The position numbers were made by a program, and so were the translations under genes. Below, piece after piece: positions 492 to 7,738 of a stretch of DNA of 64,000 bases. Source of the stretch: Pseudotabrizicola sediminis (GTDB lineage: Bacteria > Pseudomonadota > Alphaproteobacteria > Rhodobacterales > Rhodobacteraceae); assembly GCF_004745575.1 (NCBI RefSeq), contig NZ_RPEM01000014.1, positions 1 through 64,000 on the forward strand, in the 5' to 3' direction. Under the pieces are notes generated by a model. That model was not told the DNA's origin and ran no database searches. It saw only the letters and a program-made list of their open reading frames with translations. Each line of letters starts with the position of its first letter. The stretch's first letter is position 1.

Positions 492-914
492 TCACTTCAG
501 GTTCGCCATCACTCGCGCCAGAATCACCCTTGCGCCCTCCATATTCTCCGGCGCTGTTCCTGCGAGGGCGCGAGCTTCGACGTCCTGCACGGCCACACGA
601 GCATCGACGAGAACGGTTTTTCCCTTCTCGGAAAGCGAAATGAGCACCATCCTGCTGTTGTTCGGCTCGGTTTGTCGATCGATGAAGCCATCCCGTTCGG
701 TGCGCTGAAGAGTGTTCGTCGTGGTCGAGGTCTCCAGGTCGAGGCGGCGGGCGATCATGGCCGGGCGCATGCCTCCGTGCCGCCCGATCAAATCCAGGAT
801 CGCATACTGGGCAGGTGCAAGGCCAAGCGGGGCGAGTGCCGCCGCTATTTCTCGTGACGCGATACGTGCAGCTGGCAGCACCAAATTCGTAAGAAAGCCC
901 CGTTCGTCGGTCAT
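492..914 (-). CDS. MarR-family winged-helix transcriptional regulator
   Basis: This encodes a 140-aa dimeric winged-helix repressor or activator of the MarR family. The recognition helix lies around residues 57-75 (a run starting RPAMIARRLDLE) and is followed by the family's wing, with the D/N-x-R-like NNSRMVLISLSEKGK segment. The protein has no cysteine, so a thiol redox switch of the OhrR type is excluded; its ligand is unknown. I chose the ATG at 914 because GAGGA sits 8 bases upstream; a TTG at 974 would add 20 poorly conserved residues. It is divergent from the nuclease-like gene at 1346, and four TACTAGC-type motifs lie between them. Control of itself and of the divergent operon is therefore likely, but this is inference. 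Confidence 0.9.
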   Translation of the reverse strand: MTDERGFLTNLVLPAARIASREIAAALAPLGLAPAQYAILDLIGRHGGMRPAMIARRLDLETSTTTNTLQRTERDGFIDRQTEPNNSRMVLISLSEKGKTVLVDARVAVQDVEARALAGTAPENMEGARVILARVMANLK

Positions 915-991
915 ATCAGTGGTCCTCGCAAGCCCCAAGAGATCGGTGCGAATCTGTCGTCTTGCAAGGGGCAATCCATCCGCGACCTCAA

Positions 992-1049
992 TATACTAGC
1001 ATGCTCCTATTATCAAACGCCAACCGACTTACTAGCTTACTAGTAAGTT
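992..1049. promoter_or_regulatory. two operator-like palindromes upstream of the MarR gene
   Basis: Two copies of TACTAGC lie 80-135 bases upstream of the MarR start. The first (992-1013) contains the palindrome AGCATGCT. The second (1027-1049) contains the perfect 12-base palindrome CTTACTAGTAAG at 1036-1047, preceded by a direct copy of CTTACTAG. MarR proteins bind palindromes of about this length beside their own gene, so these are plausible autoregulatory sites. No binding is shown by the sequence itself. Confidence 0.55.
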
Positions 1050-1273
1050 CGAGCGCCTCGACCTGGACGCGCCTCCCAGTTCTTCTGTCAATGAGCCATC
1101 GTCAGACGTACCACTCGTGACGACCATTCAGATGTAGCGCAGTCTCGCGCGCGGCAGGGCGAGTATCATATTTAAGAACAGTGCCCAACCGCTCGTTGAA
1201 ATGGTTCGACGCTGCCCCCCGGAGACGGATGTAGGCCCCGCCTCATGGGCCTCTGAACTTTTCTTCATCAAAG

Positions 1274-1326
1274 TTACTAGCATGCTATTGTAATCCGAGC
1301 TTCACATGAATATACTAGCATCATAG
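1274..1326. promoter_or_regulatory. two operator-like motifs upstream of the nuclease-like gene
   Basis: TTACTAGCATGCTATTGTAA at 1274-1293 contains the perfect palindrome TAGCATGCTA flanked by TTAC/GTAA. A second copy, TATACTAGCATCATAG, lies at 1311-1326, only 20 bases before the start codon at 1346. They share the TACTAGCAT core with the sites at 992 and 1027. A repressor bound here would cover the likely promoter and leader of the downstream gene. The remaining bases of the 915-1345 interval show no gene. Confidence 0.55.
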
Positions 1327-1345
1327 CCCAAATGGAGTAAATGAC

Positions 1346-1972
1346 ATGATCCACCAGCGCCCTTCACAGCTCACCCTTCCGCTGCACATGCCGCGCGACC
1401 CCGTCAGCCATATCACGCCGCCGGTGGGCAAGCCTGCCCTTGCGGATGTTCTTGGCAAGGACTTCAACAATCTCGCACGCTTTCCGGCCATCAGCCCGGC
1501 TGAGGCATCGCGCCATGCGCCCCAGATCGGTCTGGCAGGTGAAAGTCTGGTAACGTCCTGGGCGGCGCGGCGCGGGCTTGCCCCCGTCTCGATGCCTGCT
1601 GGCGCGCCGTTCGATCACATCTTCACGGTTGGTCCGCATCTGGTTCGCGCTCAGACGAAGACAACGACCGGTCCGAGGCGGGATGGTCGTTACAGTTTCA
1701 ACATGAGCAGGGGGAATTCTGGCGACCCCAATGGAACCTCCGCCTATGCGTCGAATGCATTCGATCTCGCAGCATTGGTCTTCCTTGATCTCGGGGTGAT
1801 TTACTTCACGACCGAGAAGAAATCACGCTTCCGCTTCACTACTGAGGAGGCGCAGTTGATGTCGCATATCGAGTTCGAATGCTTCTGCGACTGCCTTCTG
1901 CAACTGGCGGTGATCGACCGTAGGGCCTTCGACGTCCTGACCGATGAACCGGATTGCGAAGCCGACTGCTGA
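1346..1972 (+). CDS. PD-(D/E)XK nuclease-like protein of the element
   Basis: This 208-aa protein has the motif layout of a PD-(D/E)XK endonuclease fold: GLAGE with E66, then FDHIF with D90, then RAQTKT with Q103-x-K105. That spacing matches the small group I intron-type or Holliday-resolvase-like PD-(D/E)XK families, which hydrolyse DNA with a metal bound by the acidic residues. The N-terminal 60 residues and the Cys/acid-rich C-terminus are unassigned. The ATG at 1346 has GGAG 8 bases upstream. The gene is preceded by MarR-type operators and followed after 114 bases by the AAA+/M41 protease gene on the same strand, so the two may form an operon. The nuclease assignment rests on motifs only. 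Confidence 0.6.
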   Translation: MIHQRPSQLTLPLHMPRDPVSHITPPVGKPALADVLGKDFNNLARFPAISPAEASRHAPQIGLAGESLVTSWAARRGLAPVSMPAGAPFDHIFTVGPHLVRAQTKTTTGPRRDGRYSFNMSRGNSGDPNGTSAYASNAFDLAALVFLDLGVIYFTTEKKSRFRFTTEEAQLMSHIEFECFCDCLLQLAVIDRRAFDVLTDEPDCEADC

Positions 1973-2086
1973 CTGAGATCTGCCAAGCCTGACGGCCCGC
2001 ACGGGCCACGTTATCCAATCCACTTTCGCCAAACTCATTGATCCGCACGCTGGCGGACTGCCCCTTCTATTGCCCTGGAGACGCAC

Positions 2087-4405
2087 ATGACCGATCTCAC
2101 CACCTCTTCAAAAACGACCGACATCATCCCCGGCAACAACGCGGCGCCGCACGCAGACTGGCGCAGCTTCGCCGCCGAGATCTTGACTACGCTGGCGGAT
2201 CCGGAGCATCGGATCTGGGCATATGCCGCGTGGCACGGCAGTTCTGTGGTATCGCAGACGGATCACATCCCCGACGCAACGCCGGCGCGCGCAGATGAGG
2301 CGGCTGTTGATCCTTGGGCCGAAGATTATGAGGCGAGCGGCATTCTCGGCCTCGACTATCATGTGAATGACGCCACTGACCCGTCCCGGCCTGACCCCGA
2401 CGCGCCAGAAGACAGTAAAAGGGGTCGTCCGCGCGCATCAGTGTTGACGGCAGTGATGCGGATCGCGCGGCAGTTCGCCACGCTGCGGAATCTTCTCGGA
2501 ACTCTTGCGGCGCCGGGCGCGATCACTTTCCTGTCCTCTGGAACGCCCGAACTCGACAGCACCATCGAGCAGATCCTGAACGCAATCACCGTATCGGATC
2601 AGCGCGCACCAGGCGTGCCGAAACTGACGGCATGTACCATCGAGGAGGTATTCGCGATCGGGGACCGCAAGCGGTCGGGTCCGTTCGGCGCTTTCAGTGT
2701 CGGTGTCAAAAGGTGGATCGAAGACGGCCATCCGATCGTCATCACTGGTGCTGGGTCCGCAGTGATGCGTCCGGAACTGCAGGCCATGGTCAGCAATGTC
2801 ATCCATCTCGTGCCCTTCAGCCGCGAAATGCTGTGTGAGGTGCTCAACAGCCTCTATCCCGGTGGCGAGGTGCGGGCCGACAATCTTCCGGATTGCTTGG
2901 GTGCGGCAGAGCTCGGGTGCCTCTCGCCCGAAGCGCTGACCATTGCCACACGTGCCGCGACGCCGACGGATGCAATCCGGCGGCTGGTCGCAGACATTCC
3001 GTTGCCAACCGTAGCCGGGCCCGGACTTGCGGACTTCCCGCTGCAGCCAGCGGTTCGGGAACCTGTTGAACAGCTGCTTGCGGATATGCTGGCCTGGCAG
3101 AACGGGGACATCCCATGGTCCGATGTGTCGCGCGGCATTCTGCTGGTTGGGCCCCCGGGCTGTGGCAAAACCGAACTGCCTCGTCTCATTGCGAAAGAAG
3201 CCGGGATCACGGTCCATCCGGCCTCGATGGCCAAGTGGCAGTCCACCGGTGCGCGGTCGTCCGACATCTGCCGCGAGATGCGCAGTTTCTTCACCAAGGC
3301 TGCGGCAGCGGCACCCTGCATTGTCTTCATCGATGAGTTGGATACTTTCGGAGATCGCGGTCGACCCCAAGACCACAACAGCTCCTGGACCGACATGGTG
3401 ATCGGGGCACTGCTCGAATGTCTCGATGGATATGAAACCGGCGAAGGCGTCGTGGTGATGGCCGCGACGAATCTTCTGCACAAGATCGATGCCGCCCTGC
3501 GCCGGCCCGGCCGTTTCGACCGTGTTGTGACCGTTGGCCACCCCACGCCGGATCTGATGCCCTCGGCCTTCCGGTGGCACCTACGCGATGACCTGGAGGG
3601 GGCCGACCTGCCGGCCATCGCTGCGGCGGCGACCGGTATGACCGGAGCCGAGGTCGCTGAAAGTGTCCGGCGCGCACGGGCGTTGGCGCGGCGTGCCTGC
3701 CGTCCCCTCACGCCGGAAGATCTGGGCACTGCTATCGCGGAGAGGCGTCCGCCGCTCGCCGAGCAGTTGCGTTGGCAGGTGGCTGTCCATGAGTGCGGTC
3801 ACGCGATCGTCGCGCATGCAACCGGCCGGGCGCGACCGAAGCTGCTTTCCTTGCATACGGGGGGCGGCTCGGCCGACATGACGCGGGCTGCGAGCAACTT
3901 GCGCCGCGCTGATATCGATGATGAAATCGCCTGCTGTCTCGCTGGCCGCGCTGCGGAGCGCCTAATCGTCGGCTCCGCGAGCGGTGGGGCTGGCGGTACG
4001 GAGGACAGTGACCTCGCCCATGCGACCAGAGTGGCCGCGGGCATTGAACTGTCCTACGGTCTCGGCACCAGCGGAACCGCTTGGCATGGATCGCCGGACG
4101 CCGCACTGTATCAGATGCGCCTTGACCCGAACATCCTCGCACGGGTTCAGATTCATCTTGATGACGCGGAGGCCTTCGCCTTCGAGTTGCTGAAGACTAA
4201 CCGAGCGCTTCTTGAAGACATGGCGCGGGAGCTTATGCGGACCTGCCTGCTGACTGGCCCGACGCTGGCGGCACTCCTCGCACGCACCGACCCGCAACCC
4301 ACGGTGCGCAGGGCGGCGGGCCCGCCCCAGCAGGCACCTTCGGACCTCACCCGGACGACCACGCCAGCGCGTGCCGACAGGTTGTGGGGGCGGCGACGGA
4401 AGTGA
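2087..4405 (+). CDS. soluble FtsH-like AAA+ ATPase/M41 metalloprotease with large N-terminal extension
   Basis: This 772-aa protein should couple ATP-driven unfolding to zinc-dependent proteolysis. Residues ~300-530 form an AAA+ module: Walker A GPPGCGKT (355-362), Walker B FIDELD (414-419) and the second region of homology with RRPGRFDR (472-479). Residues ~545-740 are an M41 domain with HECGH (H568, E569, H572) and the third metal ligand D642 in DSDLAHAT. Unlike membrane FtsH (~640 aa), no N-terminal transmembrane segment is visible. Instead there are ~300 residues whose second half (about 195-300) resembles a degenerate AAA domain without a P-loop. The start at 2087 has GGAG 6 bases upstream. 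It follows the nuclease-like gene and precedes a decayed partial copy of its own C-terminus. Substrate and role are unknown; defence or element maintenance is conceivable. Confidence 0.8.
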   Translation: MTDLTTSSKTTDIIPGNNAAPHADWRSFAAEILTTLADPEHRIWAYAAWHGSSVVSQTDHIPDATPARADEAAVDPWAEDYEASGILGLDYHVNDATDPSRPDPDAPEDSKRGRPRASVLTAVMRIARQFATLRNLLGTLAAPGAITFLSSGTPELDSTIEQILNAITVSDQRAPGVPKLTACTIEEVFAIGDRKRSGPFGAFSVGVKRWIEDGHPIVITGAGSAVMRPELQAMVSNVIHLVPFSREMLCEVLNSLYPGGEVRADNLPDCLGAAELGCLSPEALTIATRAATPTDAIRRLVADIPLPTVAGPGLADFPLQPAVREPVEQLLADMLAWQNGDIPWSDVSRGILLVGPPGCGKTELPRLIAKEAGITVHPASMAKWQSTGARSSDICREMRSFFTKAAAAAPCIVFIDELDTFGDRGRPQDHNSSWTDMVIGALLECLDGYETGEGVVVMAATNLLHKIDAALRRPGRFDRVVTVGHPTPDLMPSAFRWHLRDDLEGADLPAIAAAATGMTGAEVAESVRRARALARRACRPLTPEDLGTAIAERRPPLAEQLRWQVAVHECGHAIVAHATGRARPKLLSLHTGGGSADMTRAASNLRRADIDDEIACCLAGRAAERLIVGSASGGAGGTEDSDLAHATRVAAGIELSYGLGTSGTAWHGSPDAALYQMRLDPNILARVQIHLDDAEAFAFELLKTNRALLEDMARELMRTCLLTGPTLAALLARTDPQPTVRRAAGPPQQAPSDLTRTTTPARADRLWGRRRK

Positions 4406-5178
4406 CGGGGGCTGAGATCGCGGCCAGTGTGCGCCATGACCGCGCTCACCGACCGCTCGGTCCCGACGATCTGATGGCAGCCGTCAACGAAATCCGCCCG
4501 CCGCTCGAAGACAAGTTGCGTTGGCAAGTGGCGGTCCATGAGGTCGGCTATGCGATCATGGCACACGCGACCGGCTGCGCTCGTCCGCACCTGCTGTCGT
4601 TCCATGCTGTCGGCGGTGGGGCCGAAATGACCCGTGTGCCGAATGCCCTGTACCGTAGCGATCTGGATAGTGACCTGGCCTGCCTACTTAGCTGGCCGGG
4701 CCGTGGAACTCCTGGTTCTCGGCTCGGCGAGTTGCGGCTTCGGAGGGCCGAAGGACAGCGATCTGGCACATGCGACAAGAACGGCAGCGGCGATCGAGCG
4801 GTCGTTCGGCCTCGGCGGCAGCGGAACGGCACATGTTGCGGGCTGGCGGACAGCACGCTCCAGCAGGTGCGTCTGGACATTGAACTTCTCGTGCGGGTGC
4901 AGATCCGCCTCGACAATTCCGGGGGTGTTGCGCTCGAGTTGCTGAAAACCAATCTCGCGCTTCTTGAGGAAATGTCCACGCACCTGAGGCGCACCACGGT
5001 CTTGAGTGACCCGGCCCTCGCAGACTTCCTTGCTCAGATAGATCATCCGTCCCCAGACATGATCAAACAGCCAAGCCCGCGGCAAACAAAGCTTGGGGAC
5101 GCCCATGTCACGAGCAGCAACAATGCCCAACCTCTCGTGGAAATGCCGGGCTCCCGCACGACCGGACCGCAGTCGTAA
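4384..5178 (+). pseudogene. decayed tandem partial copy of the M41 protease domain
   Basis: The sequence repeats the end of the upstream protein, from the AAA lid (TGAEV / TGAEI) through the M41 domain to the C-terminal helix (LELLKTN). The metal motif has become HEVGY, losing the second histidine. Around 4687-4690 an extra base shifts the frame. The conserved LAGRAVELLVLGSAS and DSDLAHAT segment then continues in the next frame until about 4840, where a compensating change restores the original frame at LADSTLQQVRLD. One open frame of 264 codons survives, but its middle 50 residues are nonsense relative to the family. It opens with GTG inside the end of the upstream gene. It looks like an inactive remnant of a duplication. 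Confidence 0.8.
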
Positions 5179-6248: not shown

Positions 6249-6446
6249 ATGCCCGGACCGCGCCTAAGTAAAGCGAGCCTCTCGAATGCTCTGTCCGCGT
6301 TAATGGACCTTGGGATGACGCCTCGCCAAGTGTCGATAAACACCGACGGGACCTTCACCATTGACCTCGGTGAGACGCATGCGGAACAATCAGCAGACCG
6401 TGCCACCGTGCCGAAGAAGTGGGCTTCACAGGGAGTGATCAAGTGA
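6249..6446 (+). CDS. small integrase-associated protein
   Basis: This is a 65-aa protein with a helical N-terminal half and a short strand segment around INTDGTFTID. Small proteins with a similar helix-then-DGT layout often precede integrases or sit in prophages of this group; their role is not known to me, and an excisionase-like accessory function is possible. A strong AGGAGG lies 9 bases before the ATG. The stop overlaps the GTG start of the integrase (GTGA at 6443-6446), so the two are almost certainly translationally coupled. Confidence 0.7.
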   Translation: MPGPRLSKASLSNALSALMDLGMTPRQVSINTDGTFTIDLGETHAEQSADRATVPKKWASQGVIK

Positions 6447-7720
6447 GATACCGATTTCCCGGTCTTTTGCGGGACAAGACCGCTGCAGGGACGGTTCGCT
6501 GGCGCGTTCGTGTCGAGGGACTTCCGAACAAAAAGGTTCGGATCTTTTGCGGACCCGGTGAGCCGGGCTTCGAAATGCAGTACTGTGCCGCGCGTGCAAG
6601 CCATTCCGTGGAGGTCGTGAAGCCGGTGTGTCCACAAAAGGGTACTCTGGACGAGTTGTGCGACAAGTTTCTGGAATGGATGCAAGTCCAAGTCGAAGGA
6701 AAGAACCTGTCCCCGCTGACGCTTTCCGGACGCCGTACAGGCTTGACGCAGGCGCGCGAAGTCAAGGATCCGGACGGCGACCGCATGGGATCTCTCAGTG
6801 CCGACATGCCCGAGGACGCGTTCATCCATATCTACGACTCCTTCGGGTCGAGGACCGGCGCAGCCGAGACCAGCCTCAAAGCTCTACGTGCAGCGTACAA
6901 ATGGGGACAGGATAGAGGTTTTCCCAAAAACAGCGCTGTGTTGAGGGTGAAGTCCACCCATCGAAGCAAGGGAGGGGCAACGCCATGGAGTTCAGCGGAC
7001 GCGATTAAGTTTCTGAAATACCATGGCCCAGGCACCATGGCCCGGCTCTGGTTTTGTCTTGCTTACGCAACGCATGGCAGAATCGGGGATGCTCCAACCC
7101 TTGGGCCAAGCAATGAGTTCGTTCATGATGGTAAGCGGCATCTCGAATGGCAGCCAAGAAAGAAGGGGTCGGCATACGTTTCATTTCCATTCGACGGCGC
7201 GCTGGCCGAGGAACTCGAAAACCATCCCAAGCGTGAGACCTACCTTGCAACGGACTACGGAAGGCCGTTCGCTTCGTCCGGCAGCCTCGACAACCGTGTC
7301 CGGAAGTGGATCATTGCGGCTGGCCTGTGCGTAGAAGCAACGGCGACTGACGGAAGTCTGGTCTACGAAGGCACGGGCAAGAGAAAGGTCGTCAAGAAAT
7401 TGGCCACCCGCTCGCAGCATGGCATTCGCAAAGGTGTCGCGGAACTTATGGCTGAAAACGGAGCTACGGAATACGAGCTCATGGCGTCTTTCGGCTGGAC
7501 GGACGCGAGGACCGCAGCAATCTATACGAAAAAATTCCAGCGACGTGGTGCAGCAACTGCCGCTTCAAACCGGATCCTGACTGCGCAAGGTGGACCACGG
7601 ACCAAGCGTCGTGGTCCACAAGGCCACGAAAACACCAGAAAAATAAAGGAAAAATCAATGGTGTGGCAGCCCGTAGGGGAGTCGAACCCCTCTTCCCAGG
7701 TTGAAAACCTGGTGTCCTAA
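6443..7720 (+). CDS. tyrosine recombinase/integrase
   Basis: This 425-aa site-specific recombinase has an N-terminal core-binding region (~60-180) and a catalytic domain (~185-380). The catalytic signature is visible: Arg in THGRIGDAP, His/Arg in HGIRKGV, Trp in SFGWTDART and nucleophile Tyr in AAIYTKKF. It would integrate and excise the element at the adjacent tRNA-Glu. I chose the GTG at 6443, overlapping the upstream stop, because 6419 lies within the preceding gene. The last ~19 codons (after KSM) read antisense through the 3' half of the tRNA-Glu gene, so the C-terminus is partly made of attachment-site sequence and would change on excision. Confidence 0.92.
   Translation: MRYRFPGLLRDKTAAGTVRWRVRVEGLPNKKVRIFCGPGEPGFEMQYCAARASHSVEVVKPVCPQKGTLDELCDKFLEWMQVQVEGKNLSPLTLSGRRTGLTQAREVKDPDGDRMGSLSADMPEDAFIHIYDSFGSRTGAAETSLKALRAAYKWGQDRGFPKNSAVLRVKSTHRSKGGATPWSSADAIKFLKYHGPGTMARLWFCLAYATHGRIGDAPTLGPSNEFVHDGKRHLEWQPRKKGSAYVSFPFDGALAEELENHPKRETYLATDYGRPFASSGSLDNRVRKWIIAAGLCVEATATDGSLVYEGTGKRKVVKKLATRSQHGIRKGVAELMAENGATEYELMASFGWTDARTAAIYTKKFQRRGAATAASNRILTAQGGPRTKRRGPQGHENTRKIKEKSMVWQPVGESNPSSQVENLVS
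7664..7701. other. putative attachment site in the tRNA-Glu 3' half
   Basis: The integrase sits directly against the 3' end of tRNA-Glu, and elements of this type cross over within the 3' half of a tRNA. The shared core should therefore lie between the CCA end (7664) and the anticodon loop (about 7701). No second copy of this stretch is found in 1-7663, so the other attachment site must be left of the window. The exact core length cannot be seen. Confidence 0.5.
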
Positions 7721-7738
7721 CCGATAGACGAACGGGCC
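7664..7738 (-). tRNA. tRNA-Glu (anticodon TTC)
   Basis: This 75-nt tRNA has a complete cloverleaf on the minus strand. The acceptor stem is GGCCCGT paired with ACGGGCT, the anticodon stem CCAGG/CCTGG encloses TTTTCAA with anticodon TTC, the T arm is AGGGG/CCCCT with TTCGACT, the discriminator is G and CCA is encoded. Its 3' half doubles as the likely integration site of the element to its left. Confidence 0.96.

Follow-up and report, generated by a model that had tools for sequence, protein, structure and literature searches.

A 64 kb stretch of DNA from Pseudotabrizicola sediminis (GCF_004745575.1, NZ_RPEM01000014.1, positions 1–64,000 of the forward strand; hereafter the window) carries three genes at 492–4405, adjoining an integrase at a tRNA-Glu gene. 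The first encodes a MarR regulator, the second a nuclease of PD-(D/E)XK type and the third an AAA+/M41 zinc protease that is cytosolic. The nuclease and protease genes are conserved side by side in many genomes, amid differing flanks, and are usually preceded by a third gene, orfA, which encodes a small protein of approximately 165 residues and is not found in the window. The cassette is compact (two or three genes, approximately 3 to 4 kb), turns up repeatedly on the mobile DNA of bacteria from sea and soil, and probably serves mobile elements as a weapon or safety system not yet described. Its composition, its conservation, the exchange of nuclease types, the mobile setting and the conserved catalytic residues can all be read from the sequences; that orfA and MarR act as locks is what we infer.

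The original prediction was of a cassette at 492–5178 consisting of a cysteine-free MarR-type repressor, four operator-like motifs and a two-gene unit, namely a nuclease with the signature E66, D90, Q103-x-K105 and a 772-residue ATPase-zinc protease with intact catalytic motifs, beside an integrase at a tRNA. Each of these parts is present. The proposed extent holds for 492–4405 and fails for 4384–5178, which is a decayed duplicate; likewise the nuclease–protease pair stands, but the usual cassette adds orfA, and MarR is a minority feature. None of the three outcomes that would have spoken against the prediction occurred, the structural match being one of profiles. The defence or addiction role proposed there, in which the protease would degrade an inhibitor or target, is kept here as a hypothesis. 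The features of the locus are as follows.

492–974, minus strand: MarR-type regulator, divergent to the cassette (Pfam MarR; likely true start near 914)
985–1050, no strand: two operator-like sites (994 and 1030) on the MarR side (motif matches)
1275–1325, no strand: two operator-like sites (1275 and 1313) just 5' of the nuclease gene (motif matches)
1346–1972, plus strand: predicted PD-(D/E)XK-type nuclease, I-Ssp6803I-like, PDDEXK_5 group (PDDEXK_5 below cut-off; 2OST profile match; invariant D90, Q103 and K105)
2087–4405, plus strand: AAA+/M41 zinc protease, 772 residues (Pfam AAA and Peptidase_M41; neighbour in 21 of 24 strong nuclease places)
4384–5178, plus strand: partial duplicate of the M41 half, decayed and with a broken frame (49% identity; no Pfam match)
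6419–7720, plus strand: tyrosine-type integrase, its end inside the tRNA gene (phrog_1 integrase, E 4.2e-18)
7664–7738, minus strand: tRNA-Glu, insertion site of the element (collinearity break in the same-genus genome G046)

The co-occurrence of nuclease and protease in other genomes, put forward as a check, was found. A nuclease profile matched 25 of 390 Rhodobacterales genomes at E ≤0.001. Strong matches (E <1e-20) define 24 places, among which the window is the only one that is itself a row of the profile, and the protease lies directly downstream of the nuclease in 21 of them. As for the remaining three, one (G090) ends at the contig end, one (G213) shows by eye only an N-terminal piece of the protease, and one (G335) has none. 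Eight weak nuclease places, six of which had a locus, stand outside this count; the protease was seen in none of the stretches examined there. On plasmids the protease occupies the adjacent position in seven of eight nuclease records (five of these seven were opened), and the eighth, from Paracoccus jeotgali, has orfA and the nuclease, with no protease seen over the 13.4 kb inspected out of 28.8 kb. Across 385 genomes of the class the nuclease profile matched five, two strongly (the window's own and G652) and three weakly, and the orfA profile gave a single weak match; across 398 genomes of the phylum the nuclease profile again matched five, strongly in the window's own and in G014 and weakly in three. 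A search of the genome contigs with the nucleases of the window and of G652 found nothing. Two loci, that of the P. jeotgali plasmid (L009) and L122 (in G081), combine orfA and nuclease with no protease in the stretch inspected, and may be remnants or be served by a protease in trans.

The nuclease (1346–1972, plus strand; 208 residues) contains E66, D90, Q103 and K105. Across 29 aligned copies D90, Q103 and K105 are identical in all, and E66 is present in 27. Scores against Pfam PDDEXK_5, for which the cut-off is 26.1 bits, are 22.3 (E 1.4e-4) for the window nuclease, 25.3 for a Sulfitobacter relative and 40.7 for the P. jeotgali relative. When a profile of the 29 copies was compared with PDB up to E 1, the sole match was 2OST (I-Ssp6803I; E 2.3e-4), the catalytic D and QxK of which align with the profile. 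A match to a solved PD-(D/E)XK structure was thus obtained at the level of profiles, and we classify the window nuclease as putatively of this type and I-Ssp6803I-like, the difference from I-Ssp6803I being that the cassette nuclease has a protease partner. I-Ssp6803I is the homing enzyme of a group I intron; records of nuclease relatives carry the annotation 'group I intron-associated'. A tblastn search of phages with the nuclease gave no match. Free-standing nuclease relatives are found in two viral contigs (L018:5980–6564 and L019:5980–6438), with no protease match in the stretches examined. In two protease-adjoining nucleases of a single genome (L036 and L049, both in G080) E66 is replaced by alanine, and a TGA lies inside the L049 match.

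The protease (2087–4405, plus strand) matches Pfam AAA (E 1.1e-26) and Peptidase_M41 (E 2e-11). Residues that we take to be those of Walker A and B, the arginine fingers, HExGH and the third zinc ligand (D642) are identical in all 35 copies compared. These are the two catalytic domains of FtsH (TIGR01241), in the same order and with catalytic residues intact; the window protease differs in having no apparent N-terminal membrane segment and a different N-terminal part of approximately 340 residues. The membrane segment is not apparent because the most hydrophobic 19-residue stretch reaches only 1.2 on the Kyte-Doolittle scale, compared to 1.97 and 2.59 in the genome's own two FtsH proteins; some relatives reach 1.95 in the N-terminal part, and its absence is therefore claimed for the window protease alone. 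A clear housekeeping role of the protease family would have spoken against the original prediction; the window protease is not the housekeeping FtsH, for it scores 173 bits on FtsH_fam, where the cut-off is 600, and two canonical FtsH (684 and 833 bits) are encoded elsewhere in the genome. The AAA domain also matches models of IetA. The N-terminal part at approximately residues 112–330 has no assigned type; a degenerate first AAA domain was considered there and is not claimed (E 0.0099 and probability 4% against the protein's own AAA domain).

Immediately downstream, the open reading frame (ORF) at 4384–5178 is a partial tandem duplicate of the 3' half of the protease gene, with a broken frame and 49% identity over residues 508–754. 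The second histidine of HExxH is gone and there is no Pfam match; it is a decaying duplicate and no working part of the cassette. A search of the genome contigs with the window protease found three Rhodobacterales loci. Named close relatives are those of Salibaculum halophilum (48%), Roseicyclus marinus (44%) and Roseicyclus sp. Amp-Y-6 (41%), all three with orfA upstream; Roseicyclus sp. Amp-Y-6 has in addition a PD-(D/E)XK nuclease, S. halophilum a GIY-YIG-like ORF (by eye) and R. marinus a MarR homologue. The protease of locus L146 is a sister of the window protease (47% identity), and L146 has orfA, a GIY-YIG-like gene and MarR. On a Rhizobium plasmid, an ORF 5' of a related AAA-M41 protease (L016:3879–4475) resembles a PD-(D/E)XK (TnsA-like) protein by eye; searches of it against Pfam (up to E 1) and NCBIfam (up to 1e-10) gave no match.

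In most copies orfA is the first gene. Among the 24 strong places it stands 5' of the nuclease at 15 (E <1e-4) and, by weak match in the same position, at five more; L065 has a non-matching ORF there, and the window, G213 and G335 have none. The orfA profile gave 66 matches in 43 of the 390 genomes, counted as 63 loci, and no match in the window's own genome. Two of these, one by a contig edge and one split into two parts, were left out, and 61 were examined: the protease is downstream on the same strand in 50, seven are cut by the contig end, and four have room but no protease. The profile was built from 16 cassette copies; its rows include ten of the 61 loci, as well as L103 (identical in sequence to a plasmid copy), and the neighbour of these was therefore already known. 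Four copies of orfA were compared with Pfam and none matched above cut-off (best DUF7942, E 0.066), and the comparison with PDB gave five weak matches only (best E 0.1). Two loci (L033 and L034) have an orfA that is apparently tandem-duplicated within one reading frame (approximately 320 residues).

The gene between orfA and the protease occupies an exchangeable slot. A PD-(D/E)XK nuclease fills it in 15 of the 61 loci; in 40 of the other 46, by a loose pattern checked by alignment on 15, it encodes a zinc-ribbon protein with a GIY-YIG-like core. Residues Y215, K229-x-G231, R239 and E270, presumably the GIY-YIG core, are invariant in 15 of 15. At E ≤0.05 MUG113 was matched by four of the 15 and T5orf172 by two, below Pfam cut-offs where shown, and the profile of these proteins found no GIY-YIG structure in PDB, only four weak matches of other kinds. 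The record of P. alcaliphilus itself names the slot gene GIY-YIG. The slot gene of L143 encodes a protein of 635 residues that matches DUF7830 below cut-off (20.8 against 27.5 bits) and looks CoiA-like. On a tree of 60 proteases (32 with GIY, 27 with PD and one other) the nuclease label changes eight times, at least six of these on well-supported branches, compared to approximately 20 in shuffles. Nuclease type has, on this tree, been exchanged several times and is yet clustered.

The C-terminal ends of orfA carry a further signal. LAA-like ends were found in 17 of 63 distinct orfA tails against four of 313 background ORFs (Fisher 3e-11, a value that ignores relatedness), the background being drawn from long ORFs rather than annotated genes; nuclease, protease and slot-gene tails are LAA-like in six of 130 together. 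The ending resembles the ssrA tag, and such ends would fit a protein meant for degradation.

In the window the place of orfA may be taken by MarR. The MarR ORF (492–974, minus strand) encodes 160 residues with zero cysteines, matches Pfam MarR at E 4.3e-13 (49.4 bits against a cut-off of 24.6), and more likely starts near 914, at an ATG 20 codons further in. The motif TACTAGCATGCTA, with up to two mismatches, has seven matches over both strands of the 64 kb, all within 994–1325, where 0.2 are expected. They form four sites (994, 1030, 1275 and 1313), and that at 1030 contains the exact inverted repeat CTTACTAG-N4-CTAGTAAG; placed at the divergent promoters, the four operator-like sites are putative MarR operators. 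G652, from another family of the same class, repeats the arrangement of the window, with MarR (minus strand, 37% identical to that of the window), nuclease (plus) and protease (plus) and no recognised orfA. By eye its intergenic region contains ATTAGG-N7-CCTAAT and ATTAG-N9-CTAAT, which the repeat finder did not list. MarR homologues stand beside related cassettes in L146 (40%), L141 (35%), L071 (30%) and L177 (37%). Because the window, G652 and G335 (MarR and nuclease, no protease) all carry MarR and are without orfA, MarR may substitute for orfA, though the cases are few. Of 65 orfA loci for which 900 bp or more of upstream sequence were available, MarR adjoins two (L141 and L146), and G213 seems to have neither gene.

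The surroundings were expected to hold integrases and known defence genes. To characterise them we took 137 flank ORFs of at least 130 residues, nearest first and within 904 bp (three of 140 selected were dropped), a set in which a few slot genes remain, as do candidate divergent orfA genes and probable non-genes; the control comprised 137 ORFs out of 151 from 20 ten-kb stretches on large contigs. Among the matches listed for the flanks (79 families) are Resolvase (10), Recombinase (9), Mob_Pre (6), Relaxase (4) and Phage_integrase (3), together with one EcoRII, one AIPR and one Cas3_HD protein. No mobility family has two members among the controls (134 families, single members partly listed). 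Since serine recombinases and relaxases abound in the flanks and not in the controls, the cassette is mostly cargo of mobile elements. Mobile flanks were thus found as expected; defence genes are few. PADLOC recorded 65 families in the flanks, each in one protein among the matches listed. For the controls it recorded 11, of which two matched three proteins apiece. Since several PADLOC families can match one protein, this places defence genes near some cassettes but gives no clear excess of defence proteins.

We read the cassette as a mobile-element conflict module made up of an exchangeable nuclease, a lock, and a dedicated AAA+/M41 protease of the cytosol that would set the timing of nuclease activity, and consider the chances of this reading evenly balanced. 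Most copies would be locked by orfA; for the window and a small number of further copies the lock would be the divergent MarR repressor. Once MarR is derepressed in the window, nuclease and protease would be switched on together, and the protease would then either clear the nuclease after use or remove a protein that holds it in check; with MarR as the lock, the protease would act as brake or as release step. In orfA copies the protein removed by the protease would be orfA. We favour release or clearance of the nuclease by proteolysis because the LAA-like orfA tails are compatible with a protein destined for degradation. Keeping rival DNA (phage or plasmid) out of the cell that holds the element would be the likeliest benefit, with stabilisation of the element second. 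A wider formulation, in which Rhodobacterales and their kin harbour an undescribed family with one AAA+/M41 protease, two unrelated kinds of nuclease and two alternative locks (orfA with its degron-like tail, or MarR), providing proteolysis-gated immunity or addiction with a plug-in effector, strikes us as tenable and somewhat short of an even chance.

Several observations weigh against the conflict module. No protease is present in the stretch seen at the P. jeotgali plasmid, at G335 or at L122; E66 is missing from two of the 29 aligned nucleases; GIY-YIG matches lie below Pfam cut-offs, and the profile has no GIY-YIG structure match. Defence genes in the flanks are few, with no excess over controls seen. 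The link between MarR and the lack of orfA is based on few cases, two orfA cassettes carrying both and G213 seemingly neither. The degron idea does not apply to the window copy as it stands because orfA is missing there, and the activity of all parts is read from sequence alone.

To our knowledge, the nuclease-based immune and addiction modules known to date are gated by small molecules, by nucleic-acid sensing or by direct inhibitors. If our reading is true the control principle is a different one, in which an ATP-driven protease is the constant part and the cutter is exchanged; M41 proteases would be extended from membrane quality control to conflict, and orfA, a family with no Pfam name in the copies searched, would gain a role. 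Modules of mobile-element conflict are a known kind; what is unusual here is the composition of the cassette. The original prediction knew of no described system so composed, and a literature search, its scope mainly open-access papers with bioRxiv outside, likewise found no description of this gene set. MarR-controlled divergent operons share with the window a divergent regulator and paired operator-like sites, though homologues of its MarR adjoin few related cassettes. SNIPE is a GIY-YIG membrane nuclease active against phage, a single protein with DUF4041; it shares the GIY-YIG nuclease with cassette relatives, and the portion of the source at hand describes no orfA or protease for it (PMC13190303). 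The main text of DefensePredictor mentions neither FtsH, protease nor M41 (PMC13092281), and that of a phosphorothioate survey neither FtsH nor protease (PMC10853773).

The alternative that survives best is addiction, a toxin-antitoxin arrangement in which orfA or repression by MarR would be the antidote and the nuclease the poison, the protease would tune the stability of the antidote, and the outcome would be retention of the element; we regard it as possible if doubtful. The mobile and plasmid setting is consistent with it, as are the LAA-like orfA ends. Antitoxin-first gene order is typical of toxin-antitoxin operons, and the order orfA–nuclease–protease resembles it. A published parallel is IetAS, in the available part of its description likewise a mobile-element pair of AAA ATPase (IetA) and subtilisin protease (IetS), which acts as a toxin-antitoxin system on the plasmid pTiC58 and has a relative of the same kind on the mobilizable island SGI1 (PMC5006074). 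IetAS differs in that its ATPase and subtilisin are separate, whereas the cassette has M41 fused to the ATPase and a nuclease as partner; there was no subtilisin among the Pfam matches of the window proteins searched. Addiction is also at odds with the copies of the window and G652, which have no recognisable orfA, and with P. jeotgali and L122, where orfA and nuclease occur with no protease in the stretch seen. A protease of more than 650 residues would be an unusual third part.

An aid to transfer, replication or excision, in which the nuclease would nick element DNA and the protease would clear relaxosome or recombinase proteins, is improbable. A relaxase gene does lie shortly 5' of the cassette in three Sulfitobacter plasmids, and a large serine recombinase directly 3' of that in G652, but the mobility genes beside the cassette vary from copy to copy while the cassette stays whole, and the nuclease type is exchanged. 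Very unlikely, in our view, is a homing-type selfish nuclease with the protease as passenger, the cassette spreading by cutting uninserted sites. Both slot nuclease groups belong to families that contain homing enzymes, the sole PDB match is such an enzyme, and there are the free-standing relatives in two viral contigs; against this, the protease and orfA partners are conserved while the flanks vary, and the cassette showed neither an intron nor an intein, although no dedicated intron search was made. That the two genes are chance neighbours, a housekeeping FtsH copy beside an unrelated nuclease, is scarcely credible: AAA and M41 are indeed the domains of FtsH, but the conserved adjacency, the two canonical FtsH elsewhere and the lack of an apparent membrane segment contradict it.

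The first 7.66 kb of the window look like one end of an integrated element; the far end is out of view because the window begins at the first base of the contig. The integrase (6419–7720, plus strand) also matches Pfam Phage_integrase at 25.0 bits, just below the cut-off of 27.1. From 7663 to at least 8876, the end of the compared stretch, G046 follows the window collinearly at 87%; it departs from it at the 3' end of the tRNA, beyond which lie ordinary metabolic and transport genes (ORFs by eye); judged from this comparison, its arrangement is what an unoccupied insertion site would look like. In a second same-genus genome (G253) the match to the window covers the tRNA only and is uninformative on the site. 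At G000:C45:293682–293702 (L179), 2.5 kb from the end of that contig, the 3' end of tRNA-Glu recurs as a 21-bp copy, which may, tentatively, mark the far end of the element; it stays tentative because the adjoining permease gene has no match in two same-genus genomes. Near this copy on C45 is an ORF resembling an IS110 transposase.

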